64,000 bases of DNA from Hypericum androsaemum (taxonomy: Eukaryota; Streptophyta; Magnoliopsida; Malpighiales; Hypericaceae). Where the stretch lies: positions 2,307,155-2,371,154 of the forward strand of contig OZ023189.1 in NCBI GenBank assembly GCA_963995505.1. The letters are read 5' to 3'. The notes below the pieces were generated by a model. That model had not been told where the DNA came from and searched no databases. It was given only the letters and a program-made list of their open reading frames with translations. How positions within the stretch are numbered: position 1 is the stretch's first letter; each line of letters begins with the position of its first letter. The translations under genes and the position numbers were made by a program. Of this stretch, positions 14,802 through 46,258 are shown piece by piece.

Positions 14802-15012
14802 TGTTGGGTTTGAATAGAAAATTCAATGCAAGCCCAATAATGGAAAGACCTAAAGGAAAGGCCCAAAAGGGAGATGGAAGGTTGCAATCCCACATTGAAT
14901 AGAGCAAGGAGGATTTCCTTGTTTATAAGGAATTTCCCTCCTTGCCTCTCAACTTGATTGACTTCCTAAAAGGCTGACTCACCGCTAGCTGCCTGCGAGG
15001 ACGGTGCGAAGC

Positions 15013-15017
15013 ACCGT

Positions 15018-15067
<50 letters not shown>
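15013..15067 (+). repeat. GAGCAC hexamer microsatellite in the Copia-A 5' LTR
   Basis: About nine tandem GAGCAC units. The matching site in the 3' LTR (20403-20458) is followed by GCGCTCGC-type variants, so the array has changed since insertion. It creates long Ser/Cys or Ala/Arg open frames that are artefacts. Confidence 0.9.
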
Positions 15068-15068
<1 letters not shown>

Positions 15069-15431
15069 TGCGCATTGGATGCAGGTCGCAATGGGCACTT
15101 TGTGGCGCACTTGGCACTTCACACGTGCGCATCGTCTGGAGGAGCCTTAAGTATTTTGCCCGGGTCCAGAGGCAGCTGCGCAGCTACCAAAGCGACGAGG
15201 AGCTGCGAGCACCTTCAGGTTGGCCGCCGAAGAGGCACGACGGGCTGGAAAGTCCAGGAGACTTCCAGAAGGCCGAAGGGCTGCGAGATCTATCACGAAA
15301 GGGCGCCAGCGCAGCCTGGGCGCGCCTGGAAGGATCCTGAAGCCACCGAAGGGCCACGAGCGCAGCCAGTCAGCCTGCTGGCCGAGCGGACGCGTCCCTT
15401 CGGGGTGGCTGCCTCCCTGCCTCCTCCAGCC

Positions 15432-15439
15432 TATAAATA
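15432..15439 (+). promoter_or_regulatory. TATA box of Copia-A
   Basis: TATAAATA follows the GC-rich U3, and transcription would start about 30 bp downstream. An identical box occurs in the 3' LTR near 20903-20910. Confidence 0.7.
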
Positions 15440-15669
15440 GGCCTGCCCCCCTGCCAGAATCCTCATCCCAGCAGCAAGTGCACCTCCTAGCATTGTTGTC
15501 TTCTCCTCTCCCCCCGTTCTTCACTTAGAAAAGAGTCTGAAAGTTCTGTGTATATAAGGGTTCACCCGAAATTTCGAGATACGTGTGCAACATTCTTGGA
15601 AATGCCCTAAACAGTCGTTGTATCTTGGGGACGATTGCCGAAGCCCGTACCGCACTGAAATATACGGGG

Positions 15670-15684
15670 CAATCTCGTCTTACG
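15670..15684 (+). promoter_or_regulatory. U5 segment complementary to the Copia-A primer region
   Basis: CAATCTCGTCTTACG is the exact reverse complement of 15756-15770. It begins 238 bp downstream of the TATA box and so should lie within the genomic RNA. It can also pair imperfectly with 15630-15639 (GACGATTGCC), giving a local hairpin that competes with the long-range pairing. Confidence 0.8.
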
Positions 15685-15755
15685 GAGAAAGTGTCCAACA
15701 CTTGCCTCGACTGAAGTAGATCCTAATCAAGTACACCACTCCGACAAACAACAAT

Positions 15756-15770
15756 CGTAAGACGAGATTG
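15756..15770 (+). promoter_or_regulatory. Self-complementary primer-binding region of Copia-A
   Basis: CGTAAGACGAGATTG begins two bases after the 5' LTR, where the minus-strand primer site of an LTR retrotransposon normally lies. It does not resemble TGGTATCAGAGC (initiator-Met tRNA). It is a perfect 15-nt complement of LTR positions 15670-15684. Known precedent: yeast Tf1 primes from its own folded 5' RNA. The role here is inferred. Confidence 0.7.
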
Positions 15771-15781
15771 TGTACTTTAAG

Positions 15782-16680
15782 ATGGCATCGACAAGCTCAG
15801 CACCAGTGTCAGCAGTCCCGGGAACTGTCCATGCCGAAAGGCCGGCCAAGTTCAACGGTACCGAGTTCAAGAGGTGGCAACAGAAGATGTTATTCTACCT
15901 GAGACGCTCAACTTGATCCGATTCTTGAAGGAAGAGGCTCCGAAGGTGGCAAAAAATAAGGCAGATCAACAGAAGATCAACGCCCTCGATGCATGGAGTC
16001 ACAGCGACTTCCTATGCCAGAACTACGTCCTGAATGGAGTAGACGACACGCTCTACAATGTCTACGCGGAAGCTAAGACCGCTAAAGAGCTGTGGAGTTC
16101 ACTCGAGAAGAAGTACAAAACAGAGGATGCCGGAACGAAGAAATTCATCGTCGGACGATTCCTCAACTTCAAGATGGTGGACTCCAAGAAGGTCATCGAC
16201 CAAGTGCAAGAGTTGCAGCTGATCCTTCACGAGATTCAAGCCAAAGGGATGCAACTCAGCGAGTCCTTCCAAGTAGTTGCGATGATCGAGAAGCTCCCCC
16301 CGCTGTGAAAGGATTTCAAGAGCTACCTCAAGCACAAGAGGAAGGACATGGGCCTAGAAGACCTGATCGTGAGACTTAGGATCGAGGAAGACAACCGAAA
16401 GTCCGAAGTCAAGCAAGGTAAGGCCAACCCCGAGACCACCGTGCACCTCACCGAGGGAAAAGGTAGCAAGAAGAGGAAGAAGTCTGGGGATAAGCAAGAG
16501 AAGCAAGAGCCCAAGAAGAAAAAGAAGATCAAGGGCGACTTCTACAACTGCGGTAAACCCGGACACATGGCTAAGGACTGTCACCAGCTGAAGAAGAACG
16601 ACCAAGGAAGGGCTAACCTGGCTGAAGACTTATCCCAGATGGATCTTTCAGCCATTGTGTTTGAAGCCAACCTGGTGGAC
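15782..16680 (+). pseudogene. Copia-A gag (capsid/nucleocapsid)
   Basis: The chosen start is the ATG at 15782 (MASTSSAPVSAV), because the frame leads into the conserved KFNGTEFKRWQQKMLFYL. The frame shifts near 15903 and continues as ETLNLIRFLKEEAPK and VVAMIEKLPP to an in-frame TGA at 16306 where the family has Trp. It resumes to a lysine-rich region (16440-16540) and a zinc knuckle, [13 protein letters not shown]. The first knuckle Cys is replaced by Phe, so RNA binding may be impaired. The domain resembles the UBN2/copia-type Gag family. It packages element RNA in cytoplasmic particles. Confidence 0.85.
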
Positions 16681-17121
16681 AATTCGAGAGAGTGGTTCGT
16701 GGACACAGGAGCTACCCACCACGTCTGCTCGGACAAGGAGATGTTCTCGAACTATATCCCGATCGCCGGCCGAAAACTATTCATGGGAAACTCCGCAACG
16801 TCCAAGATCGTTGGTCTGGGAAAGGTGGTCCTGAAGCTGACCTCAAGAAAGGAGCTGACCCTCAAGGATGTGCTGCATGTCCCGGACATCCGCAAGAACT
16901 TAGTTTCTGGCTCACTGTTAAGCAAAGCCGGTTTTAAGCTTATATTTGAGGCTGATAAGTTTGTACTGACCAAAGTGGGTCAATTCATAGGAAAGGGTTA
17001 TCTAGAGAGGGGGCTGTTTAAGATGAATGTAATAACTGTACATCGCACCTTTAACGGTGAAAATAAAGTTAACGCTTCTTCTTACTTGGCCGAGTGTTCT
17101 AATTTATGGTTTGTAGATTAG
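16348..17121 (+). pseudogene. Copia-A gag C-terminus, protease and integrase N-terminus
   Basis: The 257-codon open segment carries the nucleocapsid knuckle and then the aspartic protease site ([12 protein letters not shown] at about 16693-16728). [19 protein letters not shown] block follows, typical of the protease-integrase linker in copia Pol. The frame is lost near 17108, where one base is missing inside the integrase zinc motif (LW then C-RLGHVN in the next frame). Protease would release mature Gag and Pol proteins. Confidence 0.85.
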
Positions 17122-17627
17122 GACACGTAAATCTAAATTCGCTAAGAAAGTTAGTAAGTTTAAATTTATTACCGAATCTAGAGTTCAACCCATCCGATAA
17201 ATGTGAAGTATGTGTAGAGGCTAAAATGACCAAAGCACCTTTCCATTCAGTGGAAAGAAGTACTACGCCTTTAGAATTAATTCATACAGACACTTGCGAT
17301 ATGAAACACGTGCAAACTAAAGGCGGGAAGAAATACTTCATCACGTTTATCAATGATTGTACGAGATACTGTTACGTATATCTCCTAAAGGGCAAAGACG
17401 AAGCTCTTGATGCTTTTAAGAGATATAAGAATGAGGTTGAAAATCAACTCAGCGTGAAAATCAAAATGATCCGAAGTGATCGAGGAGGAGAATATGTAGC
17501 TCCGTTTGAGGAACTCTGTCAAGAACACGGCATTATTCATCAGACGACTGCTCCATACTCACCTCAATCGAATGGCGTAGCTGAACGCAAAAATCGAACT
17601 CTTAAGGAGATGATGAACGCTATGTGA
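17106..17627 (+). pseudogene. Copia-A integrase, catalytic core
   Basis: The open segment starts in the zinc-binding domain ([13 protein letters not shown] ... CEVCVEAK) and continues through the core: [30 protein letters not shown] and [19 protein letters not shown]. Asp (HTD), Asp (RSD) and Glu (VAERKN) form the DD35E triad, so the catalytic residues are intact. The segment ends at a one-base deletion in the codons after MNAM near 17625. The product would insert cDNA into chromosomes. Confidence 0.9.
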
Positions 17628-18118
17628 TTAGCTCGGGCTTACCCCAGAACATGTGGGGGGAAGCTGTGCTCTCAGCTAACCACATTCTGAACAAATTGCC
17701 ACACAAGAAAAGGGATAAAACCCCATATGAACTATGGAAAGGAAGGACGCCTTCCTACGGTTACCTTAAAGTGTGGGGGTGCCTAGCAAAGGTCGAAGTA
17801 CCTAAGCCTAAGCAGGTGCGAATAGGACCCAAGACCATTGATTGCATCTTTATCGGATATGCGCAAAATAGTAGTGCTTATCGATTCTTAGTGCATAAAT
17901 CTGAAAACCCTGAGATAAACACAGGAATGGTCATAGAATCAAGGAACGCAACATGTTTTGAAGATAGCTTTCCTAATAAGAAAAGAGCTCACGAGACTAC
18001 GCTAGGGTCAAATCAGAAAGATGATAAACCTAGACGTAGTAAACGGATGAAGGTAACCAAATCTTTTGGTCCGGACTATCTAACCTATGCGTTAGAAGAT
18101 GAACCCAGGATAATCTAA
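17624..18118 (+). pseudogene. Copia-A integrase C-terminus and RT linker
   Basis: The translation continues directly from the preceding segment (SSGLPQNMWGEAVLSANHIL, YELWKGRTPSYGYLKVWGCL, IGPKTIDCIFIGYA). These are standard copia integrase C-terminal motifs. A basic hinge (RRSKRMKVTKSFG) precedes an in-frame TAA at 18116. The same frame stays readable afterwards into RT. Confidence 0.9.
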
Positions 18119-19642
18119 GAGGCATTGTCCAGTCCAGATGCTCCTCTCTGGAAGGAAGCTATCAATAGTGAGATAGAATCCATTATGCAAAACCACATGT
18201 GGGAAATCGTGGATCTCCCACCGGGCTGCAAACCTTTGGGATGTAGGTGGATCCTAAAAAGGAAATACAAAGCTGATGGATCAATCGATAAGTACAAAGC
18301 TTGATTGGTAGCTAAGGGGTTCAAACAGAAGGAGGGATATGATTTCTTTGACACATATTCACCGGTCACAAGAATCACATCGATTAGAGTACTCATAGCT
18401 GTTGCAGCAATCTATAACCTCGAGATCCACCAAATGGATGTAAAAACAGCTTTCCTAAATGGAGAACTGGAAGAGGAGATATACATGGAGCAACCTGAAG
18501 GGTTTGTGGCTCCCGGTCAAGAGCATAAAGTGTGTAGACTAGTCAAGTTACTATACGGGCTAAAACAAGCGCCGAAACAGTGGCACGAGAAATTTGACAG
18601 AACAATGTTGTCAAATGGATTTAAGATCAATGAGTGCGATAAATGTGTTTACATTAAGGGCACACCTGAAGCTTACGTAATTGTATGTCTCTATGTAGAT
18701 GACTTACTAATTATGGGAAGCAATAAAGAGGTTATTGTGAAAACTAAGAACATGTTAAAGAATCACTTTGACATGAAAGATATGGGTCTGGCAGACGTCA
18801 TACTAGGAATAAAAATTTCTAGGAAAGTTGACGAAATTATCTTGACGCAATACCACTACGTGGAAAGCGTGCTCAAGAAATTTGAAGCTTTTGATAAACC
18901 TCCGGTTAAGACTCCAGTAGATTTGAATCTACACTTAGCCAAGAATCGAGGGGACCCAGTATCTCAACTGAAGTATGCGCAAATTATCAGGAGCTTGATG
19001 TATTTAACAAACTGTACTCGTCCCGATATTGCGTACTCGGTTAGCAAACTTAGTAGATTCACAAGTAATCCAGGAAAGGATCACTGGCTAGCTCTAGAAA
19101 GGATTTTACGGTATTTAAAACATACCATAAATCATGGCATACATTATGCTAAATATCCAGCTGTATTAGAAGGATACAGTGACGTAAACTGGATATCGGA
19201 CACTAAGGACTCCAAATCCACGAGTGGATACGTATTCACCATAGGAGGAGGAGCTGTGTCTTGGAAGTCCTTTAAACAAACGTGCATAGCTCGATCCACC
19301 ATGGAGTCGGAGTTTATAGCACTAGACAAAGCTGGGGAAGAAGCTGAATGGCTCAGAAACTTCCTAGAGGATATTCCGTGCTGGAGTAAACCGGTGCCTC
19401 CCGTATTGATACATTGTGATAGCATGTCTGCAATCGGGAGAGCACAAAGTACATTGTACAACGGAAAGTCTCGACACATCCGTCGGAGACACAATACCGT
19501 AAGACAGTTGATCTCTAGTGGGGTGATCACCATTAACTATGTAAAGTCCAAGGACAACTTAGCTGATCCTTTTACAAAAGAAATCAATAGAGATCAAATG
19601 TACAACGCAGTAAGGGGAATGGGATTAAAATCCACACACTAA
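18119..19642 (+). CDS. Copia-A reverse transcriptase and RNase H
   Basis: The frame runs from [20 protein letters not shown] through a TGA at 18302 (family Arg; CGA to TGA) into an uninterrupted 445-codon stretch at 18305-19642. RT motifs seen: [37 protein letters not shown] and the catalytic [11 protein letters not shown]. RNase H motifs: [45 protein letters not shown] and the [10 protein letters not shown] block. It ends at a normal C-terminus (GMGLKSTH). The enzyme pair would copy element RNA into double-stranded DNA. The open part looks intact; start and expression depend on the broken upstream polyprotein. Confidence 0.92.
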
Positions 19643-20185
19643 AGAACGTCCATAGCGGTAACTCAACCATGATGAGTGGAGATCCCACAAACTTGGTTCA
19701 ATGAGAAAACTAAGTTATAGAGGGTTCAGTTAATCACCTGGAACCTATCTCATTCTCAGAAGCTGCCCAGGTATTAACCTGCAGAGGTGTGGTAAGGTTA
19801 AGCATTACGCTTTTAATAATTCCTATACCTTGATTAAGGTGGAGTATAGCAGGATACTCCTGATAGGAGATCACCTATGTAAGTGTGAAGTGAGGCCGCT
19901 TCAAATGGGAAAAACACTTATGAATCCAAGATACGGTCCAAGGCCGAAACGGACACAACGTGAGAACCCAAATATACTAGGGTTATTATTGTGTAAATTT
20001 TATTATCTTGGTTTACACCAAAAGCTGACGGTTCAAAACATCGCGTTCACCGAGCAGCGAGTAAATCTGATAACATATTACTAGAGAAGGTTCAAAGCCG
20101 CAAGCTACCTATCTCGATGCAATAATAACACGTCAGAACTTTCGATTAGAGTATGCATGCATTAATCATCATTCATGTGGGGGAT
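19643..20185 (+). other. Copia-A 3' untranslated region with conserved blocks
   Basis: It is non-coding, but strings of sequence are shared with the equivalent region of Copia-B (33359-33957): AAGGTTAAGCATTA.GCTTTTAAT, GCAGGATACTCCT, GAGATCACCTAT and CATCGCGT.CAC. GGATACTCCTGATAGGAG can fold locally. It ends with the polypurine tract ATTCATGTGGGGGA next to the 3' LTR, identical in both elements. A role in RNA packaging or priming is inference. Confidence 0.7.
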
Positions 20186-20401
20186 TGTTGGGTTTGAATG
20201 GAAAATTCAATACAAGCCCAATAATGGAAAGGCCCAAAGGAATAGCCCAAAAGGGAGATGGAAGGTTGCAATCCCACATTGAATAGAGCAAGGAGAATTT
20301 CCTTGTTTATAAGGAATTTCCCTCCTTGCCTCTCAATTTGATTGACTTCCTAAAAGGCTGACTCACCGCTAGCTGCCTGCGAGGACGGTGCGAAGCACTG
20401 T

Positions 20402-20458
<57 letters not shown>

Positions 20459-21226
20459 CGCTCGCGCTCGCGCACAAGCACGTCCATGTGCGCATGGCGC
20501 ATTGGACGCAGGTCACAATGGGCATTTTGTGGCGCACGTGCGCATCATCGCGAGGAGCTGGAGGAGCCTTAAGTATTTTGCCCGGGTCCGGAGGTAGCTG
20601 CGCAGCTACCAAAGCGACGAGGAGCTGCGAGCGCCTTCAGGTTGGCCGCCGAAGAGGTACGACGGGCTGGAAAGTCCAGGAGACTTCCAGAAGGCCGAAG
20701 GGCTGCGAGATCTATCACGAAAGGGCGCCAGCGTAGCTTGGGCGCGCCTGGAAGGATCCAAAAGCCACCGAAGGGCTACGAGCGCAGCCTGGCGCGCCTG
20801 GAAGGATCCAGAAGCCACCGAAGGGCCACGAGCGCAGCCAGTCAGCCTGCTGGCCGAGCGGACGCGTCCCTTCGGGGTGGATGCCTCCCTGCCTCCTCCA
20901 ACCTATAAATAGGTCTGCCTCCCTGCCAGAATCCTCATCCCAGCAGCAAGTGCAACTCCTAGCATTGTTGTCTTCTCCTCTCCCCCCGTTCTTCACTTAG
21001 AAAAGAGTCCGAAAGTTCTGGGTATATAAGGGTTCGCCCAAAAGTTTCGAGATACGTGTGCAATGTTCTTGGAAACGCCCTAAACAGTCGTTGTATCTTG
21101 GGGACGATTGCCGAAGCCCGTACCGCACTGAAATATAAGGGGCAATCTCGTCTTACGGAGAAAGTGTCCAACACTTGTCTCGACTGAAGTAGATCCTAAT
21201 CAAGTACACCACTCCGACAAACAACA
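20186..21226 (+). repeat. 3' LTR of Copia-A (1041 bp)
   Basis: It matches the 5' LTR nearly throughout and has the same ends. The extra length comes from the GAGCAC/GCGCTC array (20403-20475) and a tandem duplication of about 50 bp (GGCGCGCCTGGAAGGATCC unit, about 20740-20820). It is followed by the TSD TTTTG. Confidence 0.93.
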
Positions 21227-26560: not shown

Positions 26561-27157
26561 AAGTTTGAATACAAGATTGAGTATCAAAATATGTCAATAT
26601 TTAGCTCTATTTATAGAGAGTTGAAAAATAATAATTTTCATATTTTTTAAATTTTAAATTTTATCAAAATATAATATTAATTATGATAAACAAATAAATA
26701 ATATTTACTAATATCTATTTCAACAAATTATATTTTGTCACGTACCACTAGGATTAGATTAAGATAAGAAAAAAAGATCACGAGCGTCGATCTGCCAGTC
26801 GTGCGGCTCGGCCCAAATCCATCCATTTTCTATTTTTTTTTAATTTCTTCTTTGTCCTTATACGGTGAGCGTCTAATGTTCGATGTGAAAATTGAGTGGA
26901 TCGAAAGGGCACGATACAACACAGTAATCTATGATTTTCTTCAAAGACTAACCGATTATATCACAACCCTAAAAAAAACCGATTATATCACTGCAGCACG
27001 ATAAAAAAAAAATAGAAAACACGACTAGAGCGCAAAAAAGAGAAATGCTCTTTAATATCAAACTCTCAGACTTCTGAAAATGATAAACTCTCTATATATT
27101 TATAAAACAAGTACATTGTGCTATTTAAACTAATCAGCAAACCCTAAACATACTTAA
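26561..27157. other. AT-rich spacer, no gene seen
   Basis: No supported features. The short frame at 26801-27004 is low complexity. Confidence 0.5.
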
Positions 27158-27394: not shown

Positions 27395-28161
27395 TGTTGG
27401 AGAATTGATTTATTAACCAAGGAAGAGATGGCCCAATACAAGTGAGTGTGTTGGGCTTTGGCCCAAATATTTAATTAGAGGGAGAATCCTAATTAAATAT
27501 AATAACTAAGTAATTAGTGGGTAACTTTGAGCTAATTTAATTGAAGGTCACACCAATTGATTTTGGGTGTTTGTGAGATCAATACGAAGCTCGTTGATAG
27601 AGCTTCGTAACGATATATAACACTTGCGAAAATCCAATTCTCGGAGTGAATGAAAATTGGCTTTAAAGTGGTATGGTTGTTATTAAAATAAGCACAATCC
27701 CACATTGGTTAGCGCACCATGCTGAGACAAGTTTATAAGGGACTAGAAGTCTAGCATGGGTAAACTGGTGGAGAAGGGAGAGGCTCCTCGCGCCATCCGT
27801 CCATCCGTCTGCCCGGCTCGGCACGCACGCACGAACGCACGCGCGCGCACGCCCCGCCCCGCCCCGCCCCGTCTTGGACCGGGCCGGGCCGGGCTGAGCC
27901 CGGGCTCGGGTTACGGGATTGTGAGAATTGTTCCAGGTTCCAGGCCTTATCTTTTTAGAACTGGGCCGGACCTGTTGAAGCGATTCTGGGCTCTAAGTCT
28001 GTTGGGCTTAAGCTTGGACAAGCCCATCTTCTGGATCCTTCTTCTCCTTCCAGAAAGTGTCTCTTTGAGGGGTAATCATGGCTCTTATAACAGCAAAGTT
28101 ATGAGGGGTATTCATGGCTGCCATTGATTTCGGATTTGGAGGTAGGAGGTCCTTGGCTACC

Positions 28162-28168
28162 TATAAAA
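28162..28168 (+). promoter_or_regulatory. TATA box of Copia-B
   Basis: TATAAAA lies in ACCTATAAAAGGAGCCCTCC, a strong plant TATA context. The same box occurs in the 3' LTR near 34799-34805. Confidence 0.7.
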
Positions 28169-28389
28169 GGAGCCCTCCTCCCTCATTCCAAATCATCCCA
28201 GCTCTCACTCTTCCTTGAGCTCTCTACTTCTCCCTCTATAGCATGGCATTTCTCACTCTCATTGTGTCGGAGTTCTAAGGCTACGAAAAGTTCGAAAGGT
28301 GTACGAAAGTGCTTCCTTTTGTACACGAGGTTGGGCGTTGTACCTTGGGAGCTCTCTTACCCACGGAGGCCTGAAGCATATAGGCGGGT

Positions 28390-28404
28390 AATAAGAGTTA
28401 TAAG
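28390..28404 (+). promoter_or_regulatory. U5 segment complementary to the Copia-B primer region
   Basis: AATAAGAGTTATAAG is the exact reverse complement of 28595-28609. It begins 228 bp downstream of the TATA box, close to the 238 bp in Copia-A. An upstream partial complement (CTCTTACCC, 28354-28362) can form a competing hairpin with GGGTAATAAGAG (28386-28397). Confidence 0.8.
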
Positions 28405-28594
28405 GGCACACGGCTTGCTGTGGTCTCGTCCAGGATTGCATCCGAAGATCACTACCTTGAAGAAGACGGTATTCACACTTAGTTCGAAGTATGATCGTGA
28501 GCATTCTCTAAACTCCTCTCTTTTATTTGGCTTACGGATTACATACGATTATATGCTTTATATATTCGTAGTTTACTAATATTTGACCAACAAT

Positions 28595-28609
28595 CTTATA
28601 ACTCTTATT
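28595..28609 (+). promoter_or_regulatory. Self-complementary primer-binding region of Copia-B
   Basis: CTTATAACTCTTATT begins two bases after the 5' LTR. It is unrelated in sequence to the Copia-A 15-mer, but it is again an exact 15-nt complement of its own LTR. No initiator-Met tRNA complement is present. Confidence 0.7.
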
Positions 28610-29243
28610 CTCTAAAATATTAGTATACTGGTGTGTAGTTCGTATGCTTATTATTACTGTTGTTCGAAACCATCGGTCATCAGTGTGACACTTAACATAA
28701 TTCTTTACATTCGGTTTCTAACTGATCATTACCTTCTGTGGAAACAAAAGGAAAACTGATTGTAGTGAAAAATTGATGAGTCAACAGGTATTATTTAAAA
28801 GAAGAAGTTGATGCGTGAGTGCTTCTGTGAAGGGATAAAAAAATAATAATAAAAAAAAAATTCACCAATTTTATTTTCCCACGTTTGTTTTTTGCTTCCG
28901 TTCATGTTTTAATGGGTTTTCTGATTAAATTCGTAACCTATTAAAGTCGCTAGCAATACGTTTTTACAGTAAGGTTTCTTCTGCAAAAGCGTTTACTAAC
29001 GTCTAATTAATTAGTGTCTCTTTACTCCTGCTGTTAAGTAAAGCTTAAAAAAATTACTGTGATATTTGAAAGGGTGCTTGTTTCATCTACTTTGCGTAAC
29101 CGTTTTTATATTTGATTACAGTTCGTGTAATTAAAACAGCTTTATAATCTTAGTTGTTACGGTTCTCGGAACAAATAATTTCTGGATTTATCCATTGTGT
29201 GAAAATTGTCGTTTACTCACTAAATCCTATATTTGAAATATAG
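28610..29243 (+). other. Copia-B 5' leader, no gene seen
   Basis: AT-rich sequence between the primer region and gag. No upstream open frame of note. It is much longer than the 11-nt spacer in Copia-A. Confidence 0.5.
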
Positions 29244-29318
29244 ATCATAGCTGGAATTAACAACTCTCCCCCACACGAGATCAACAACTCCGGTGCGACG
29301 AACACCACGAATGACAAC

Positions 29319-31169
29319 TTGAACGAGGAGGTTCATGTTGTGAGGGCTAGCGGCGCTGAGGCCGTGATGCCGGGTCATAGACACCCAATGCCACTGCCGT
29401 ACTCTCATCTTGAGAAACCGGAAAAGTTCAAGAGTGGAAATTTCAAGAGATGGCAACAAAAAATATTGTTCTACTTGACTACCTTTAACTTTAGCCGGTA
29501 TGTCAAGGAGGAGAAACCCAAAGAGAATGTGAGTGATCCGCTTCAAACCGCGATCCAAAATGCATGGGTACATGAAGATTACCTATGCCGCAACTATATA
29601 TTGGGTTCACTCGACGATTCGCTTTACGGCGTGTACTATACCAAAGAAACGTCTAAGGATCTTTGGGAATCGTTGGAGCACAAATATAAAGTTGATGACG
29701 CCGGTGCAAAGAAATTTGTGGTCGGGCGCTTCCACGACTATTGGATGGTCGATGGAAAGAGCGTTGTGGAACAATGCGAAGAGTTGCAATTGATCTTTCA
29801 TGATCTTGCAACGGAGGAAATGGCCACCAATGATGCCCTCCAAGTGGCGATGGTAATTGAGAAATTACCACCATCTTGGAAGGACTTCAAGATGTACCTC
29901 AAATACAAGAGGAAGAAGATGACTCTCGAGGACCTTATCCGAAGGTTGCGCATCGAGCAAGGCAACCGAAAGGTTGATAAGAAACCAAGTGGCATGGTTG
30001 CTAAGGCCAATGTGGTCGAGACCGGGGGGAGCTCCCGTGGGAACAAGCGGAAATGCTCAAATGATTCCAAGGGAGATGCTCAGAACAAGAGCTTTACTGG
30101 TGCTTGCTTTGTTTGCAACAAGACCGGCCATCGTGCCAAAGATTGCTACAAACGTCTAGCCGCGGAGGGTAAGAAGACGGCAGGACCAAGCAAGGGCAAG
30201 AAGAAGAAGCCCGCCAATGCTAACATTGCGGAGGCTAGCTTGAGCTCCGACCTCGATGAGATGCACCTCACGGCCGTTGTGTCCGAGGTGAACCTCGTGG
30301 GTGGGAACTCGAAGGAATGGTGGGTGGACACGGGGGCTACCCGCCATATTTGTGCCAACAAATGGATGTTCAAGACCTATCAACCGGTCGATGATGAGAA
30401 CTGCTACATGGAAAATTCTGCAGTCTCGAAGGTTGAAGGCAAGGGGACGGTCATGCTGAAGATGACCTCGGGTAAGGAGCTGACCTTGACTGATGTGCTG
30501 CATGTGCCCGAGATTCAAAAGAATCTTATCTCCGGAGTGGTGCTCAACAAGAGGGGCTTTTGGCTTGTGTTCGAATCCGACAAGGTCATCATGTCCAAGG
30601 GAGGGATGTTCGTTGGCAAGGGCTACTTGACCAACAATCTTTTTAAGATGAGTGTAATGACTTTAGCTCCCAAGGCAAAGTCTAGTGATAAGATTGCCAA
30701 TAAGGCTAGCACGAGCAATAATGTAATAAATGTTGCCGATAAGGCCAATGAGAAAGTGAAGGTTGCTTATTCTCGGGATTTGTTATATTTATGGCATGGT
30801 AGACTAGGTCATGTGAACTATAAGTCTTTGCAAAGGCTAATATCACTTAGCCTACTACCAAAGTTTAACATCGATCACAAACATAAGTGCGAGACTTGTG
30901 TTGAGGCCAAGTACGCCAAAGCATCTTCCCACTCGATTGAGCGAAGCACGGAACCATTGGATTTAATCCACACCGACGTATGTGATTTAAAATACGTACA
31001 AACGCGTGGCGGTAAAAATTATTTTATAACTTTTATCGACGATTGTACGAGGTATTGCTATGTCTACTTGATGAGAAGTAAAGACGAAGCAATAGACATG
31101 TTCATTCACTATAAGAATGAAGTTGAGAACCAACTTGGCAAGAAGATCAAAAATCTTCGAAGTGACTGA
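29319..31169 (+). CDS. Copia-B gag, protease and integrase (long open segment)
   Basis: A 616-codon open stretch; it is open from about 29244 and has no ATG before about 29367, so the original start may be lost. Gag: KFKSGNFKRWQQKILFYLTT and VIEKLPPSWKDFKMYLKYKR. Zinc knuckle intact: CFVCNKTGHRAKDC. Protease: WWVDTGATRHIC. Integrase zinc region: LWHGRLGHVNYKSLQRL ... CETCVEAK; core begins HTDVCDLKYVQTRGGKNYFI and ends at RSD before a TGA (31167, from CGA). The products would form particles, cleave the polyprotein and integrate cDNA. Close to Copia-A in every domain and less damaged. Confidence 0.93.
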   Translation: MNEEVHVVRASGAEAVMPGHRHPMPLPYSHLEKPEKFKSGNFKRWQQKILFYLTTFNFSRYVKEEKPKENVSDPLQTAIQNAWVHEDYLCRNYILGSLDDSLYGVYYTKETSKDLWESLEHKYKVDDAGAKKFVVGRFHDYWMVDGKSVVEQCEELQLIFHDLATEEMATNDALQVAMVIEKLPPSWKDFKMYLKYKRKKMTLEDLIRRLRIEQGNRKVDKKPSGMVAKANVVETGGSSRGNKRKCSNDSKGDAQNKSFTGACFVCNKTGHRAKDCYKRLAAEGKKTAGPSKGKKKKPANANIAEASLSSDLDEMHLTAVVSEVNLVGGNSKEWWVDTGATRHICANKWMFKTYQPVDDENCYMENSAVSKVEGKGTVMLKMTSGKELTLTDVLHVPEIQKNLISGVVLNKRGFWLVFESDKVIMSKGGMFVGKGYLTNNLFKMSVMTLAPKAKSSDKIANKASTSNNVINVADKANEKVKVAYSRDLLYLWHGRLGHVNYKSLQRLISLSLLPKFNIDHKHKCETCVEAKYAKASSHSIERSTEPLDLIHTDVCDLKYVQTRGGKNYFITFIDDCTRYCYVYLMRSKDEAIDMFIHYKNEVENQLGKKIKNLRSD

Positions 31170-31988
31170 GGTGGTGAATATGAATCTCCATTTGCACAAG
31201 TTTGTGCCGAGAATGGAATCGTTCATCAAACCACGACGCCTTATTCTCCCGAGCAAAATGGAATTGCGGAAAGGAAGAATAGGACGCTTAAGGAAATGAT
31301 GAATGCGATGCTTATTAGTTCCAGATTACCAAGGAATTTGTGGGGGGAAGCGGTGCTTTCGGCCAACTATGTGCTCAACAGGGTACCACATAAAAAGTTG
31401 GATAAAACACCTTACGAATTATGGAAAGGTCATGCGCCTAGCTATAAATTCCTAAGGGTTTGGGGATGTCTTGCTAAGGTTCCGATCCCGCCTCCTAAAA
31501 GGACAAGGATAGGACCCAAGACGGTGGATTGTGTGTTTATCGGTTATGCACAAGATAGTGCTGCATATCGATTCTTGGTACACAAGTCAGATAACTCTGA
31601 TATCCACATAAATACTATCATAGAAGCTAGGGATGCTTCATTCTTTGAGAAAATCTTTCCTCACAAAGCTCAAACTAGTGTTGACCGTCAAGTTGACCAA
31701 AGTGGGAGCAATGTGGGGGGAGAGGAACCTCAAGATGAAGGTGAAGAGTCTAGACGTGGGAAAAGGGCTAGGAAAGAAAAGTTCTTCGGATCAGATTTCC
31801 TAACATATCTGTTAGAAAAAGATCATGTAACCTACAAGGAAGCAATGTCTTCTACAGACTCTGCTCTTTGGAAGGAAGCGGTGAATAGTGAGATAGAGTC
31901 TATCTTACATAATCACACTTGGGAACTAGTAGATCTACCTCCGGGTAGTAAACCACTAGGCCATAAGTGGATCTTCAAAAAAAGATAA
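31170..31988 (+). CDS. Copia-B integrase, remaining core and C-terminus
   Basis: The frame continues after the TGA with GGEYESPFAQVCAENG and [18 protein letters not shown], which supplies the catalytic Glu. The integrase C-terminus follows (LPRNLWGEAVLSANYVLNRV, YELWKGHAPSYKFLRVWGCL, IGPKTVDCVFIGYAQDS). The uninterrupted part from 31296 is 230 codons. It ends at TAA near 31986, where a frameshift separates it from RT (WIFKKR then KPDGTVDKY in another frame). Confidence 0.9.
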   Translation, partial: GGEYESPFAQVCAENGIVHQTTTPYSPEQNGIAERKNRTLKEMMNAMLISSRLPRNLWGEAVLSANYVLNRVPHKKLDKTPYELWKGHAPSYKFLRVWGCLAKVPIPPPKRTRIGPKTVDCVFIGYAQDSAAYRFLVHKSDNSDIHINTIIEARDASFFEKIFPHKAQTSVDRQVDQSGSNVGGEEPQDEGEESRRGKRARKEKFFGSDFLTYLLEKDHVTYKEAMSSTDSALWKEAVNSEIESILHNHTWELVDLPPGSKPLGHKWIFKKR

Positions 31989-33358
31989 AGCCTGATGGTA
32001 CAGTGGATAAGTACTAGGCAAGACTTGTTGTTAAAGGCTACAAGCAAACAAAGGGTGTTGATTATTTTGACACATATGCTCCTGTCTCCAGGAAAACATC
32101 TATTAGGTTAGTCATAGCCTTGGCGGCTTTGTTTAACCTAGAGATCCATCAAATGGATGTGAAGACGGCCTTCCTTAATGGAGATTTGGAAGAGGAGATT
32201 TACATGGAACAACCCGAAGGGTTTGTGGTTCCAGGTAAAGAACATAAGGTGTGTAAACTTGTAAAATCCTTGTATGGACTAAAACAAGCACCTAAACAAT
32301 GGCACGAAAAGTTTGATAGTGTAATGCTATCTAACGAGTTTCAAATAAACCAATGTGATAAATGTATCTACGTGAAAGGAGATGATAATGACTATGTGAT
32401 AGTTTGTCTCTACGTAGATGACATGTTGATCATGGGTAATAATGATAATATCAAAATTACCAAGAAAATGTTGTCACAAAATTTCGACATGAAAGACTTG
32501 GGACAAGCTGATGTAATACTTGGGATGAAAATCACCAAGACTTCAGAAGGTTACGCGCTTTCCCAAGGTCACTATGTCGAAAAGATACTTGACAAATTCG
32601 ATAAGGATAGCAATGTAATTGCGAGAACACCTATGGAAGTGGTGTCGAGTCTCTGCAAGAATCGCGGAGAGAGTGTGAGACAACTAGAATATTCTAGAGT
32701 TATAGGCAGTCTAATATACCTCATAGACTGTACTAGACCAGATATTGCAAACTCGGTTAACAGATTATCGAGATATACGAGTAATCCCAATTATGAACAT
32801 TGGAAAGCGATAGTTAGAGTCCTTAGATACCTAAGGTACACTGCTAACTATGGATTACACAATACGAGACATCCAGCCGTTCTGGAAGGGTATTCAGACG
32901 CGAACTGGATCTCAGACTCCAAGAATATAAAATCCACTAGCGGATACATATTTACATTTGGAGGAGCAGCAGTCTCGTGGAGATCATGCAAACAAACTTG
33001 CATTGCTAGATCAACTATGGAATCAGAATTCATAGCGTTGGATCTAGCAGCTGAAGAGGCGGATTGGCTCCGAAATTTCTTGGAGGACATTCCGATGTGG
33101 TCAAAACCAGTGCCTCCCATTAGCGTGCACTGTGATAGTCAATCAGCTATTGGAAGAGCACAAAATAATGTGTATAATGGAAAGTCTAGACACATATGTC
33201 GTAGGCATAAATCCGTGAGAATATTATTGAGAACGGGTGTGATATCTTTAGACTATGTAAAGTCAAAAGAGAACATCGCGGATCCATTAACTAAGGGTCT
33301 AACAAGAGACCAAGTTGAGGTATCATCGAGGGAAATGGGATTAAAGCCCACGAAATGA
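31989..33358 (+). CDS. Copia-B reverse transcriptase and RNase H
   Basis: After the frameshift the reading resumes with KPDGTVDKY, a TAG at 32016, then [10 protein letters not shown] and an open run to 33358. RT motifs: [37 protein letters not shown] and the catalytic [11 protein letters not shown]. RNase H motifs: [45 protein letters not shown] and [12 protein letters not shown]. The C-terminus is GLKPTK. Catalytic residues appear intact. With only three lesions across pol, this is the better template for studying the family. Confidence 0.92.
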
Positions 33359-33957
33359 CCTAAACCCATGATGGCAACCCAACCTGGATCATAAATCCCG
33401 ATCTGCAGGTTCAAAGGGACAACCGAATTGTGAGGCCAGGGTCGAACAAAGTACTCGGAAAATTGAGTTCCTTGCCTATTCCTATGATGGAAGAGTGATA
33501 GACCTGTCCATGTGAAGGTTAAGCATTAAGCTTTTAATGATCCTTATACTTCGAGTATATATATAAGTGGGGTATGGCAGGATACTCCTTATAAGAGATC
33601 ACCTATATCGAATGTGAAGGGGCCACTTCTATGAGATGAGTTAAGGGCTAAATCTCTAGAGCATTCGATGAAGTTTCCAAGGCAGTCCAGGGCCAAAATG
33701 GACAACAACGAAAGAACCAAGTAGTGGTTTGAGAAGGAGTTATGTGAGTACCTTTGTCTTGGTATACATAAAATGCCGAACAGTTTAAGGCATCGCGTCC
33801 ACTGGTTGGCAAGTATATCCGAAGGTATTTCACTAAGAAAAGTTCAAGGCTTTCAACCACCTTTCCTGATGCAACAAATTCTCGCAGAACTCCAAGTTGT
33901 ATGTAGCAATGGTAGGCTCATATCATATATAAGCCAATTTGCATTCATGTGGGGGAT
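33359..33957 (+). other. Copia-B 3' untranslated region with conserved blocks
   Basis: It shares ordered blocks with Copia-A 19643-20185: GTTAAGCATTA.GCTTTTAAT, GGCAGGATACTCCT, GAGATCACCTAT, TCTTGGT.TACA and CATCGCGTCCAC. It ends in the polypurine tract CATGTGGGGGA. The conservation in non-coding sequence suggests a required RNA element. Confidence 0.7.
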
Positions 33958-35229
33958 TGTTGGAGAATTGGTTTATTAACCAAGGAAGAGATGGCCCAAT
34001 ACAAGTGAGTGTGTTGGGCTTTGGCCCAAATATTTAATTAGAGGGAGAATCCTAATTAAATATAATAACTAAGTAATTAGTGGGTAACTTTGAGCTAATT
34101 TAATTGAAGATCACACCAATTGATTTTGGGTGTTTGTGAGATCAATACGAAGCTCGTTGATAGAGCTTCGTAACGATATATAACACTTGCGAAAATCCAA
34201 TTCTCGGGGTGAATGAAAATTGGCTTTAAAGTGGTATGGTTGTTATTAAAATAAGTACAATCCCACATTGGTTAGCGCACCATGCTGAGACAAATTTATA
34301 AGGGACTAGAAGTCTAGCATGGGTAAACTGGTGGAGAAGGGAGAGGCTCCTCGCGCCGTCCGTCCTCCCAGCTCGGCTCGGCACGCACACATGCGCGCGC
34401 GCATGCCCCGCCCCATCCCGGACCGGGCCGGCCCGGGCCGGGCTTGGGCTCGGGCTCGGGCTCGGGTTTGGGCTCGGGTGCGGGTGCGGGTTGCGGGTTG
34501 TGGGATTGTGAGAATTGTTCCAGGTTCCAGGGCCTTATCTTTTTAGAACTGGGCCGGACCTGTTGAAGCGATTCTGGGCTCTAAGTCTGTTGGGCTTAAG
34601 CTTGGACAAGCCCATCTTCTGGATCCTTCTTCTCCTTTCAGAAAGTGTCTCTTTGAATTCAAAAACATGGGATTTGAATTCAGAGGTAACAGCCAATATA
34701 AATGAGGGGTAATCATGGCTCTTGTAACAGCAAAGTTATGAGGGGTATTCATGGCTGCCATTGATTTCGGATTTGGAGGTAGGAGGTCCTTGGCTACCTA
34801 TAAAAGGAGCCCTCCTCCCTCATTCCAAATCATCCCAGCTCTCACTTTTCCTTGAGCTCTCTACTTCTCCCTCTATAGCATAGCATTTCTCACTCTCATT
34901 GTGTCGGAGTTCTAAGGCTACGAAAAGTGCGAAAGGTGTACGAAAGTGCTTCCTTTTGTACACGAGGTTGGGCATTGTACCTTGGGAGCTCTCTTACCCA
35001 CAGAGGCCTGAAGCATATAGGCGGGTAATAAGAGTTATAAGGGCACACGGCCTGCTGTGGCCTCGTCCAGGATTGCATCCAAAGATCACTACCTTGAAGA
35101 AGACGGTATTCACAATTAGTTCGAAGTGTGATCGTGAGCATTCTCTAAACTCCTCTCTTTTATTTGGCTTACGGATTACATACGATTATATGCTTTATAT
35201 ATTCGTAGTTTACTAATATTTGACCAACA
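33958..35229 (+). repeat. 3' LTR of Copia-B (1272 bp)
   Basis: It matches the 5' LTR apart from a roughly 50-bp segment at about 34656-34706 and differences in the GC-rich GGGCTC/GGTGCG repeats (34436-34505). It is followed by the TSD CATAT. Confidence 0.93.
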
Positions 35230-36087: not shown

Positions 36088-36320
36088 GTTTGTTATAGTT
36101 GTATCTAGATTTTACTTAGAGATGGAAGTATGATTTCAAAGAAAAAAAATGGACAGAGAAGGAGGGGAAGAAGTTGCTGGACGAAATCACAGAGAGGTGA
36201 AGTGGAAGAGAAAATTAATTCTAGATCATTCTCTACTATTCTGACATGTCTATTACATATATATAAGATGGACTAAACTTGGCCAAAAGGCCCAAGTGAT
36301 AATTGGGCTCAATTATCTAA
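36088..36320 (-). repeat. 3' LTR of the Tork-like element
   Basis: About 233 bp matching 41048-41281, with a TATATATAAG stretch near 36260. Confidence 0.85.
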
Positions 36321-36437
36321 TAATCTCTACCTTGAGCCAAATTGTGTCCAAACTAAAAATCGAACATTAACCAAACAACGAACACTAAACACAACTAGCA
36401 AAAGCTAGTAACAAACCGACACCGAATTAGTACAAAA

Positions 36438-36938
36438 TCAAAACTTTGCAACTGAAAGACGCTTTATGAGTATGTCAGCAGGATTTGACTCCGTACCAAT
36501 CTTCTTCACAAGAACTTTACCTTTCGAGATGACGTCTCGAACAAAATGGTACCGGATGTCAATATGCTTGGTCCTCTCATGGTACATATGGTCCTTTGTC
36601 AAATGAACCGCACTTTGACTGTCACAAAATACCACAATAGAACCAAGAAAAGAAGACATCTCACCAATAAATGATTTGAGCCAAATCGCTTCTTTGATTA
36701 CCTCCGTAATTGCAATGTATTCGGCTTCGGTAGTTGAAAGTGCAACAGTTGGCTGGAGTTGAGACTTCCAACTAATTGCAGATTTGTCAAGAGTGAAAAT
36801 GTACCATGTCAATGATCTACCCTGATCAAGATCACCACCATAATCAGAATCCACATAATCGGTTAGTGCACCATTTTCTTTTCCAAACTCCAAACGAGCA
36901 TCAATGGTACTTTTTAAATAGCGAAAAATCCATTTCAC
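36438..36938 (-). pseudogene. Tork-like RNase H
   Basis: The minus strand reads KWIFRYLKSTIDARLEFGKE, DYVDSDYGGDLDQGRSLTWY, VALSTTEAEYIAITEVIKEA and FCDSQSAVHLTKD, then HERTKHIDIRYHFVRD. All are RNase H motifs of the Tnt1/Tork type. A stop separates it from RT at about 36940 (GKGH stop KAVKWIF). It ends IKRLSVAKF, a typical C-terminus. Confidence 0.88.
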
Positions 36939-36944
36939 TGCTTT

Positions 36945-37760
36945 TCAATGCCCTTTTCCAGGACAAGAAACATACCTGCTAACTACACTAACAGCTTGTG
37001 AAAGATCGGGTCGGGTACATACCATCAAATACATAAGGCTCCCAATGGCACTTGAATATGGAACCTTCTCCATGTATCTCCTTTCACCATTGGACTTCGG
37101 ACTCAATTCACGTGAAAGCTTGAAATATTTTGCAAGAGGAGTAAAGACAACTTTAAGATTCTTTATGTTAGACTGAAACCGATGAAGAACTTTCTCAGCA
37201 AAACTCTTTTGTGAAAGATAAAGCTTCCAGTTGGAACGATCTCTTGTGATCTCCATACCAAGGATTCTCTTAGCAGACCCTAAATCTTTCATCTCAAATG
37301 CCGAGCTAAGTTGCTCTTTCAACTTTTGAATTTCTCCCATATTGGTGGCCGCAATTAAGATATCATCCACATACAACAACAAGTAGATGAAATCAACACC
37401 ATCCAACTTCTTAAAATAAACACAACTATCATAATTAGAACGGGAGAAATTGATACTAACCATGAAAGAGTCAAACTTCTTATACCATTGCCGAAGTGAC
37501 TGCTTAAGGCCATAAAATGACTTCTTTAATAAACACACATGGTCCTTATATCCCAGAACTTTGAAACCCTCCGGTTGTTCCATATAGATTTGCTCTTCTA
37601 AATCACCATGCAAGAAGGCTGTTTTTACATCCAATTGTTCCAATTCCAAATCCTTCATTGCAACCAAAGAGAGCAAAATCCGAATGGAGGTATGCTTAAC
37701 AATGGGTGAGAACACTTTATTGAAGTCAATACGTTGCACTTGGCTATAACCCTTAGCCAC
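36945..37760 (-). pseudogene. Tork-like reverse transcriptase
   Basis: The 271-codon segment starts AKGYSQVQRIDFNKVFSPIV and includes LDVKTAFLHGDLEEQIYMEQ, FYGLKQSLRQWYKKFDSFM and the catalytic LLYVDDILIAA. Upstream, stops near 37779 and 37825 separate it from the integrase linker. It would copy element RNA. Catalytic residues are intact in the segment, but the polyprotein is broken. Confidence 0.9.
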
Positions 37761-37874
37761 AAGCCTTGCCTTATATCAAAAAATTTCAGAACTTGATCCA
37801 TCTACCTTCCTCTTGAAAACTCACTTACAACCAACAATTCTCTTATCATTAGGTGGCTTCACAAGAGTCCAAGT

Positions 37875-38830
37875 CTAATTTCTTTCCAAGGAATGAACCT
37901 CCTCATTCATGGCACCAACCCATTCAGCTTCATCTTTGGAAGAAACTGCTTCTTCATATGTTGATGGATCACTAAACTCCACCTCTTTAGCAGCAGCCAA
38001 ACAGAAAGCAAAATCAGACCATCCATATATTTTCGGTGCTTTGGTCTCCCTTCTAGGTCGGTCCCTAGCCAAAGAATAAGGTTGCTCGACTTCTTTACCT
38101 TCTTCTTCTTCATCAAATTTTGGAAGCGGTACCTCAAACTCCATATTTTGCTGAACTTTCTCATTCTCCTTAATAGCCGACTCGGAAGCAACATCCTTTG
38201 CTTTCAATAGTGCCGATTCATCAAATGTAACATCTCTTGAGATGAGAAACTTGGATAATTTAGGACATCATAAATTGTATCCCTTCACATTCTAGGTTAC
38301 CCAACAAAAATACACTTCTTTGCTATTGGCTCCAACTTTCCTTCATTTGTGTGAGCATAAGCAGGACAACCGAATACCCTTAAGATTGAATAATCAGTCG
38401 GCTTACCCGACCATACCTCCTTGGATGTCTTGCACTCAATGGAAGTGGTAGGAGATCGATTCATCAAATAGCATGAAGTGCTCACAGCTTCTGCCCAAAA
38501 TTCCTTTCTCAAACCTGCATTAAAAAGCATACATCGAGCCTTTTCAAGTAGTGTCCTATTTGCCCTTTCTGCAACCCCATTTTGTTGTGGAGTATACACA
38601 ACGGTCTTATGCCGAACAATCCCTTCGGTTTTGCAAAACTCATCAAATTCTCGGTTACAATATTCTAAACCATTATCAGTTCTCAATCTCTTCACTTTCT
38701 TTCCTGTTTGCTTTTTCAAAAGGGTTTTCCGTTCTTTGAAGGTCTTGAACACTTGGTTTTTCTCCTTCAAGAAATAAACCCATACTTTTACTTGAACACT
38801 TGGTTTTTCTCCTTCAAGAAATAAACCCAT
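37875..38830 (-). pseudogene. Tork-like integrase core, C-terminus and hinge
   Basis: Segment 38297-38830 reads KRLRTDNGLEYCNREFDEFC, YTPQQNGVAERANRTLLEKA, FWAEAVSTSCYLMNRSPTTS and VFGCPAYAHTNEGKLEPIAK, with Asp (TDNG) and catalytic Glu (VAERAN). Segment 37875-38207 is the acidic hinge before RT (FDEEEEGKEVEQPYSLARD, EEAVSSKDEAEWVGAMNEE). A stop/frameshift lies between them near 38250. A 47-bp tandem duplication at 38744-38837 breaks the frame just upstream. Confidence 0.88.
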
Positions 38831-38837
38831 ACTTTTA
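38744..38837 (-). repeat. 47-bp tandem duplication disrupting the integrase frame
   Basis: Units 38744-38790 and 38791-38837 are identical. Because 47 is not a multiple of three, the duplication shifts the integrase frame and repeats the peptide KVWVYFLKEKNQVF in two frames. Confidence 0.9.
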
Positions 38838-39246
38838 TAGAAAAGTCATCAATGAAAGTAAGCAAGTAACAAGAACCTTTACCTTTTGATGGCATACGAG
38901 AGGGTCCCCAAAGATCGAAATGAATGTAATCCGTTGTTCCTTTAGTCGAATGAATGGCCGTCGAGAAGCTTAACCTCTTTTGTTTGCCACATACACAATG
39001 TTCACAAAAGCTCATGCTACTTGTGCATTGGCCACACAACAAGCCTCTTTTACTCAAGATGTCCATTCTCCGCTCACTCATATGTCCTAACCTCATATGC
39101 CATAACTTTGTAACATCCGCATCCGCGGTAGGACAAGCAATAGTGGCTGAATCCTTGACCGTGGAACCTTGCAAGAAATAGAGAGTTCCAACTCTCTTTG
39201 CCTTCATAATAGTAAGAGATCCTCTTGAAATTCGTAGAACTTGCAT
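38788..39246 (-). pseudogene. Tork-like integrase N-terminal half
   Basis: The minus-strand open segment contains the zinc-binding motif (LWHMRLGHMSERRMDILSKR ... CEHCVCGKQKRLSF) and the start of the core (YIHFDLWGPSRMPSKGKGSC, YLLTFIDDFSIKVWVYFLKE). One catalytic Asp is present (HFDLWG). The frame ends inside the 47-bp duplication. Confidence 0.88.
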
Positions 39247-39478
39247 CCCTTTTCTTCAAGTGACCTTAATGAGATCAAGTTTTTTGTTAAATCAGGTATA
39301 TGCCTCACACCTGTCAATCTTTGGATCTTGCCATCATGAAACTTAATCTTGATTGTGCCAACACCTGCAACTTGCACAAATTATTGTTGCCCATGAGTAT
39401 CTTGCCATTTGACGACTGATATGTCTCAAACTAATATCTATTTGGAGTCATGTGTTGACAGGCACCCGTATCCATAAT
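39247..39478 (-). pseudogene. Tork-like protease remnant
   Basis: The minus strand near 39440-39480 reads IMDTGACQHMT in a frame interrupted by an upstream TAG. D-T-G is the aspartic protease active site. The rest of the domain down to 39247 is frameshifted. Confidence 0.7.
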
Positions 39479-40329
39479 CTAATAATTCTCATCATTAACA
39501 CTACAATCAATTGCACAAAGAGTGTCAATTGTTTCACCACCAGCTACATTAGCCTCCTCTAAAACAACACCTTTAGCCTTTTGTTTATTCTTCAACTTAA
39601 AACAATCGGCCTTGATGTGTCCCTTCTTCTTGCAATAATGACATGTGAGATTCTTATTCCTGGACTTGGAATGAGTTCTTGAATCTTTCAGAGTTTTTTC
39701 TTTAGATCTACCTCGATCCACAACCAAACCAACACCTTGACTCTCCTTCTCAACATTGGTCATCTCACTATCCAAGTGCAACTTGGCTTGCAAATTACTT
39801 TTAACATCATCAAGGGTAATCTTCTCTCTACTATAAACCATCATATCTCTAAAAGACTTATATGATGCAGGTAATGAACATAACAACAACAGAGCTTGGT
39901 CCTCATCCTCTACCTTTATACCTAATTTATCCAAATCATTCAAGATTGAAGTAAACTCCGCAATATGATCAGAAAGTGATGTACCTTCATCCATGCGAAG
40001 AATGTAGAGGCACAATTTTAGCCGGAAATGATTAGTTAGAGAATTTTTCATATAAATGCCCTCTAACTTTTCCCACAAACCTTTTGCAGTTTTCTCTAAT
40101 AGGACTTCCTGTAGCATTGCATTACTCAAATATAATTGAATAGTTGAGAGAGCCTTGTCATCCATATCTTGCCACTTCTTGTCTGAAATAGCATCACCCA
40201 ATTTGTCTCTACCATAAATGGTACCCTTAATTCCAAGATTAGACAAAATAGCACCCATACGCACTTCCATAGTGCAAAACTCATCTTCCCATCATACTTC
40301 TCAATATCATACTTCGTCGACATCTCCAT
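39479..40329 (-). pseudogene. Tork-like gag
   Basis: It starts at the ATG at 40329 (MEMSTKYDIEKYDGKMSFAL), shifts frame near 40265 and continues for 263 codons: DDKALSTIQLYLSNAMLQEV, LWEKLEGIYMKNSLTNHFRL and LLLLCSLPASYKSFRDMMVY. A basic region is followed by a zinc knuckle, CHYCKKKGHIKADC. This is the Tnt1/Tork-type copia Gag, a structural and RNA-binding protein. Only the frameshift near the N-terminus breaks it. Confidence 0.9.
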
Positions 40330-40837: not shown

Positions 40838-40883
<46 letters not shown>

Positions 40884-41015: not shown

Positions 41016-41035
41016 TGATGGGTCACGACAAACTA

Positions 41036-43719: not shown

Positions 43720-43750
43720 ATAAGAGAAGAAAAAAAAGGGAACATAAAAA

Positions 43751-45426: not shown

Positions 45427-46258
45427 TGTTGGAGAATTATACTTTAAATCTAACGAGGAGGTTGGCCTAACAAAAGTTTAAGTTGGGCATGAGCTTAAGA
45501 GCTTAATTAGAAAGAGAATTCTAATTAAATATGATCTCTTAGAAACTTTGAGCTAATTGTAATATGTGGGTCACACCAATTGGTTTTAGGTGTCTATGAG
45601 ATCATTGTGAAAATTCATTGAGAAAGTTTTGTAACGATAAATGACACTTACAAAAAATCATATCTCGCTGTTAATAAAAATTGGCTTCGATGTGATACGA
45701 TTTTACCGGCCGTCATTAATTTGAGATGTATGACTTATTTAACCATTCATTTATTGACCGTGGTTAATAGGGACGTTAATGGCTGTAACTGCTCATTTTT
45801 TTGACTATTTTAATAAAGAGATTAATGACTGCCCATTATTCCAGAATTAAATGGTGTCTCTAATCCTCCCTATAAAAGGGGACCTCCTCCTCTCATTTTA
45901 CACACACCAAAACTCACAAAGAATTTTACTCTCCTCTCTCCCCCCCTAGCATAGGCATTCTTATATTTGCATAGAGTTGGAGTTCTGCAACCTATAAAGG
46001 TTCGAAGAGTGTTCAATAGTGCTTCCTATTGTACACGTGATTGGGTGTTGTACCTTAAGAACTTTCTTACCCATGGAGGCCTGAAGTATATCGGTGGGTA
46101 ATAAGAGTTTAAGGGCACATGGCTTGCTGTGACCACGTCCATGATTTAATCTGAAGTCCACTACCTTGGAGAAGACTGTTTTTAACACTTTGAGCAAAAT
46201 GTGATTGTAAGGATACTCTTTATTTCTCCTCTCTTATATTGTTTACCTCTTATATATA
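45427..46258 (+). mobile_element. Solo LTR related to Copia-B, left part, split by a MULE
   Basis: It starts TGTTGGAGAATTATAC and follows the Copia-B LTR along its length, including GTCACACCAATTG, a TATAAAAGGGG box at about 45871 and the hairpin/U5 area (TCTTACCCA ... TGGGTAATAAGAG at about 46070-46110). It breaks off in TTATATATA, the MULE target duplication, and its last 40 bp lie at 55489-55528. Flanks TAACT and TAAAT are a 5-bp TSD with one mismatch. No internal region exists, so it is a solo LTR. Confidence 0.85.

Follow-up and report, generated by a model that had tools for sequence, protein, structure and literature searches.

The window, that is, the whole 64,000-nt stretch of DNA analysed here, contains two elements on its plus strand, designated Copia-A and Copia-B. 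Copia-B spans positions 27395-35229 (7835 bp; TSD CATAT). Its 5' LTR (27395..28592, 1198 bp) is a direct repeat with the 3' LTR (33958..35229, 1272 bp), has the ends TGTTGG...CCAACA and differs from the other copy by a K2P distance of 0.030. Two separate plus-strand open reading frames lie between the LTRs. The first (29319..31169) encodes gag (PF14223), a zinc knuckle, Pol_BBD, gag_pre-integrs and the start of the integrase, the last represented by a partial rve match of 28.8 bits, below the cutoff of 32.6. The second (32120..33358) encodes the reverse transcriptase (RVT_2) and part of RNase H. Copia-A (14802-21226, 6425 bp; TSD TTTTG) has a 5' LTR of 952 bp (14802..15753) and a 3' LTR of 1041 bp (20186..21226), with a K2P distance of 0.040 between them. 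Both of these LTRs carry an array of the hexamer CGAGCA, with about 8 copies at 15019-15068 vs 13 at 20403-20482. The coding regions of both elements are broken, with gag and pol in separate reading frames. Judged by their sequence features, namely PF14223 gag and gag_pre-integrs in Copia-B and a downstream RVT_2 domain in Copia-A and Copia-B, the two are plant Ty1/copia LTR retrotransposons. A protein search with the Copia-B gag-pol reading frame gave 967 matches, and the named ones among the 120 listed are from flowering plants, without lineage names, so that the content of the window marks it as plant DNA; identity was also found to copia-type proteins carrying PF00665.

Further repeats surround these elements. 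A minus-strand copia element at 36088-41281, which served as a control, is bounded by LTRs of ∼233 bp that are 96% alike; at 41036 it has a site of the tRNA-Met type. About five 176-bp units form an array at 42842-43712, with related copies in inverted orientation near 26.3 kb, and a long inverted repeat (43750-45106; arms of ∼280 nt, 86-88% complementary) adjoins this array.

An earlier note on this DNA had pointed to an exact complementarity across the end of the Copia-B 5' LTR, and recomputation confirmed it. The putative primer-binding site CTTATAACTCTTATT (28595..28609) is the exact reverse complement of a putative self-primer, AATAAGAGTTATAAG (28390..28404), within the 5' LTR. It is separated from the LTR by the 2-nt spacer AT (28593..28594), which mirrors an AT preceding the 3' LTR. 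In Copia-A, the putative self-primer CAATCTCGTCTTACG (15670..15684) likewise pairs exactly with the putative primer-binding site CGTAAGACGAGATTG (15756..15770), so that the length of 15 nt and the offset of 2 nt that the note had given for both elements are indeed found in both. Not one mismatch or G-U occurs among the 30 base pairs of Copia-A and Copia-B. The 3' LTRs contain intact primer 15-mers as well, at 21143-21157 (Copia-A) and 35027-35041 (Copia-B). The putative TATA box of the Copia-B 5' LTR (TATAAAAG, 28162..28169) aligns with that of Copia-A (TATAAATA, 15432..15439) and with that of a third LTR, termed D (see below). Its distance to the primer is 228 nt in Copia-B and 238 nt in Copia-A, in agreement with the earlier values, and 229 nt in D. 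What did not hold was the claim that the two 15-mers share no sequence: anchored at their LTR-proximal ends, they agree at 6 of 15 positions.

This pairing is not random. In the shuffled-LTR control that the earlier note had proposed, a complement of 15 nt was reached in 0/5000 shuffles for Copia-A and in 0/5000 for Copia-B; the best complement among the 5000 dinucleotide-shuffled LTRs measured 11 nt and 13 nt, respectively. When 498 internal 20-mers were compared with each LTR, the longest complement was 14 nt (Copia-A) and 11 nt (Copia-B). Under a mononucleotide model, the expected number of exact 15-nt complements starting 0-5 nt past the LTR is 3e-6 for Copia-A and 1e-5 for Copia-B. Pairing is also specific for the element's own partner: with partners swapped (A site with B LTRs, B site with A LTRs), no more than 7 nt paired. 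The tRNA-Met-type controls C, with its site TGGTATCAGAGC adjoining the LTR, and E, with the site TTGGTATCAGAG and an LTR end that is not firmly fixed, paired with their own LTRs over only 6 and 7 nt, respectively, and thus lack the long fold-back of Copia-A and Copia-B. The largest off-target pairing in the cross table was 9 nt (E site with B LTR). All of these figures refer to n=2 complete pairs of primer and site, from related elements in one window.

Sites of the tRNA-Met type (TGGTATCAGAGC, with up to 2 substitutions) were located in the window at 51002, 2336, 7177, 28081 and 41036, and none lies directly after the 5' LTR of Copia-A or Copia-B. The Copia-B site shows a partial likeness to tRNA-Lys, and was rejected as a tRNA-Lys-type site on account of its wrong sense for priming.

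Relatives were also sought outside the window. Among viral contigs, neither the alignment of the reverse transcriptase (59 stretches) nor the gag protein (7 stretches) revealed a relative, and none was found among phages. The search of genome contigs returned two loci, L001 and L002. Four plasmid records matched with the reverse transcriptase protein and two with the gag protein, both of the latter being among those four or among the other loci found; a distant blastn search of plasmids with the Copia-B leader gave no match. Two of the loci are filed as plasmids: L003 (NZ_CP115454.1, 4649 bp; Kitasatospora cathayae) has a plant-type Ty1/copia reverse transcriptase, and L004 (NZ_CP115302.1, 5159 bp; Streptomyces camelliae) has one identical to it in the tree and carries a tRNA-Met-type site after CCCAACAAC. 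Both are probably plant contamination. L001 (NZ_SWBM01000016.1, 4351 bp), a contig in a Robertmurraya genome, contains a copia-type pol, and L002 (CAKZGI010000313.1, 10780 bp), a contig in a Trichormus MAG, contains two copia-type pol copies that are ∼80% alike; these are probably eukaryotic contamination. L001 is the nearest relative among the loci found (56%). It has no LTR between the end of pol and the start of a second gag, and the 16-mer following a CCAACA has no complement of at least 8 nt within L001. A further 5' LTR with a site of the A/B type was not found among any of the viral, genome, plasmid and phage loci.

The earlier note had spoken of covariation across families and of two unrelated pairings. 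Three observations show that Copia-A and Copia-B are not unrelated families. Their RT-RNase H regions are 67% identical, they group together in a tree of nine rows (92/92; 100/99 for A, B and L001, rows without lineage labels), and the leaders within their LTRs can be aligned from the TATA box to the primer, with the two primers in corresponding places. C, L002 and L004, on the other side of this tree, have tRNA-Met-type sites. On the same grounds (RT-RNase H identity, tree and leader alignment) an independent origin of the two pairings was rejected; kinship and alignable leaders together indicate one inherited layout in which the letters have changed. The primer and the site covary. When the two stems are aligned from the end next to the LTR, 9 of the 15 pairs have changed on both sides and 6 of the 15 are the same, and sliding one partner by 1-3 columns reduces the two-sided changes to 1-2 pairs. 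The shuffle figure for covariation, 3/500, has little meaning, as only two sequences are compared. From its observations the note had concluded that the pairing exceeds chance and implies selection. The first part stands, given the absence of 15-nt complements among the shuffles and the shared length and offset, and so does the covariation. The second is too strong, since templating could also keep the strands complementary: if the binding site is rewritten from the primer in each self-primed cycle, covariation need not reflect selection on pairing.

The third LTR, D, is a truncated LTR related to that of Copia-B (77%) at 45429-46240 (∼45.4-46.25 kb), with its TATA box at 45871. It contains a primer-like segment, AATAAGAGTTTAAG (46100..46113, plus strand), that is one base short of the Copia-B primer. 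D neither supports nor tests the pairing, because no binding site of its own lies in the window. Repeats of the AAGATCTGACTTTT type follow D and occur also near 55.2-55.5 kb. Directly 5' of the self-primer of Copia-B, a small hairpin with an ACCC...GGGT stem is predicted at 28359..28389 (-7.5 kcal/mol); the 5' LTR of Copia-A (-7.2 kcal/mol) and D (-10.2 kcal/mol) likewise have a predicted hairpin immediately before the primer. A hairpin in this position seems common to A, B and D, with pairs that differ between the elements, which we take as a lead only.

Such an arrangement has precedents. Among plant Ty1/copia elements, the TAR lineage has been predicted to self-prime (Neumann et al. 2019; PMC6317226), and an earlier proposal for the TAR members Houba and Osr-1 is cited there. 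The criterion given in that article, a complement to the 5' LTR of 10 bp or more that starts 0-5 bp after it, describes Copia-A and Copia-B as well (15 nt at +2). As described there, TAR elements resemble ours in being Ty1/copia, in having a predicted self-primer in the 5' LTR that complements the region just beyond it, and in having no tRNA-Met site. Copia-A (6425 bp, LTR 952 bp) is also near Houba (6437/968) and Osr1 (6400/965) in size (PMC1940013), whereas Copia-B, with 7835 bp and an LTR of 1198 bp, exceeds both. Copia-A and Copia-B are probably members of the TAR lineage. In the literature searched, no statement on the position of the TAR primer relative to the RNA start was found. Self-priming has been demonstrated for Tf1/sushi elements, whose RNA pairs through its own 5' portion with the primer-binding site, so that no tRNA is used (PMC7175516; PMC4600332). 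Tf1/sushi pol is of the Ty3/gypsy chromovirus type, in contrast to the copia-type RVT_2 pol of Copia-A and Copia-B. Moreover, the Tf1 primer is formed by the 11 nt at the very start of the RNA, whereas the 15-nt primers described here are predicted, judged from the TATA boxes, to lie ∼200 nt downstream. A Tf1-type primer at the RNA 5' end was rejected for our elements: their predicted start zones complement the sites over only 4 nt (Copia-A) and 3 nt (Copia-B). Other copia elements, among them Bianca, Osser, Bryco and Gymco-II, share with Copia-A and Copia-B the lack of a full tRNA-Met site, according to the same account of the Ty1/copia lineages (PMC6317226). Their sites pair with tRNA halves, unlike those of Copia-A and Copia-B, which pair exactly with their own LTRs. 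The putative Tork-, Ale- or SIRE-type copia elements compared here (C, E, L004 and L002) share the Ty1/copia pol with our two elements and differ from them by a TGGTATCAGAGC-type site after the LTR.

Taken together, these results argue, with a probability of roughly 0.78, that Copia-A and Copia-B are related copia elements, probably TAR members, whose own RNA serves as the primer of reverse transcription and whose binding site is rewritten in each cycle. The transcript, the cut, the priming and the rewriting are the parts that we infer. In Copia-B, the primer RNA (28390-28404) would pair with the binding site (28595-28609) of the transcript, and the RNase H of the element, by analogy with Tf1, would cut after position 28404 and thereby free a 3' end. 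Reverse transcriptase would then extend this end through the AT and U5, yielding the minus-strand strong stop, which would subsequently be transferred to the 3' LTR. In the last step, the primer RNA would be copied during plus-strand synthesis, so that the binding site is rewritten as its exact complement; the predicted hairpin at the 5' edge of the primer could limit the copied stretch to 15 nt. Rewriting would account for the 15/15 match in each element although 9/15 pairs differ between the two. Elements that use a tRNA primer renew their primer-binding site by copying that tRNA. A self-primer would likewise be copied into the binding site, and changes in the LTR would spread to the site with no selection acting separately on it. 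In both elements, the spacer AT stands at both internal LTR edges, before TGTTGG and after CAACA, the edge of the 3' LTR reading GTGGGGGAT followed by TGTTGG. This mirrored AT would give symmetric cDNA ends if minus-strand synthesis begins precisely at the border of the paired stretch.

With the RNA assumed to start 30 nt past the TATA box, the primer begins ∼208 nt (Copia-A) and ∼198 nt (Copia-B) into the transcript. More tentatively, we suggest the combination of an internal self-primer ∼200 nt into the transcript, a 5' hairpin that stops plus-strand copying, and a primer and a binding site that evolve in concert and drift freely. The concerted evolution would follow from the rewriting of the site from the LTR in each cycle, with no host tRNA to track. 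An internal primer also constrains the 3' end of the RNA. A cut in cis after the primer would separate the leader from the rest of the template; the strong stop would therefore end at 28405, and the RNA 3' end would have to lie beyond it. This leaves 69 nt (Copia-A) and 188 nt (Copia-B) of the LTR past the primer for the RNA 3' end. If the RNA ends earlier than the primer end in the 3' LTR, either priming must occur in trans or the model must be wrong.

Priming in trans, a variant of this reading, is included in the figure given above for self-priming, and we consider it somewhat unlikely. Here, a second RNA packaged in the particle would supply the primer as a short LTR fragment while the template stays whole. 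R would then not have to extend beyond the primer, and cleavage on either side of the primer would account for matches of exactly 15 nt. Against it, Tf1 is described as having the first 11 bases of its RNA on the primer-binding site, with cleavage falling between bases 11 and 12 (PMC7175516). Clearly less probable is a reading in which the stem, as a conserved RNA structure, has another role, such as packaging, dimerization or translation control, and a different RNA serves as primer. Covariation alone is silent on the function of the stem, and the leader that aligns between the TATA box and the primer in A, B and D, with a hairpin before the primer, would fit such a role. Against it, the 3' strand of the stem occupies in Copia-A as in Copia-B the position of a primer-binding site, 2 nt beyond the LTR, where no tRNA-Met-type site is present, and the perfect pairing throughout both stems resembles copying more than an ordinary selected stem. 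We give still less credence to the idea that the complement in the LTR is incidental and that the partner of the site is a small RNA such as a host tRNA or half of one. Half tRNAs do serve other copia lineages, for example half tRNA-Ile in Bianca (PMC6317226), but the sites of Copia-A and Copia-B lack an initial TGG, differ from each other at 9/15 positions and each match their own LTR exactly. The 64-kb window contains no tRNA genes, and the search against Rfam gave 0 matches. Finally, a chance match has next to no probability: in a looser control, 3140 20-mers of the window were each compared with the ∼1 kb before them, and 2 did have complements of at least 15 nt, but one of these is an A/T-rich low-complexity stretch (27001-27020, 16 nt) and the other (44841-44860, 20 nt) belongs to a long inverted repeat, whereas Copia-A and Copia-B have the length, the offset and the place of the pairing in common and were matched by none of the shuffles.

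Self-priming by the elements themselves therefore remains our preferred reading. For TAR elements it has already been published as a prediction, and what is new here is mainly detail. Possibly the new point is the location of the primer, which would lie ∼200 nt from the start of the predicted RNA, with a small predicted hairpin immediately before it, and not at the 5' end as in Tf1. Such an internal primer predicts where the RNA must end, which can be checked in ordinary transcript data. An exact 15-nt match that drifts between relatives also offers a simple sequence test of the copying of the site in each cycle. If the reading is true, this lineage would need no host tRNA to start reverse transcription, and it could then not be blocked by tRNA fragments binding to the primer site.
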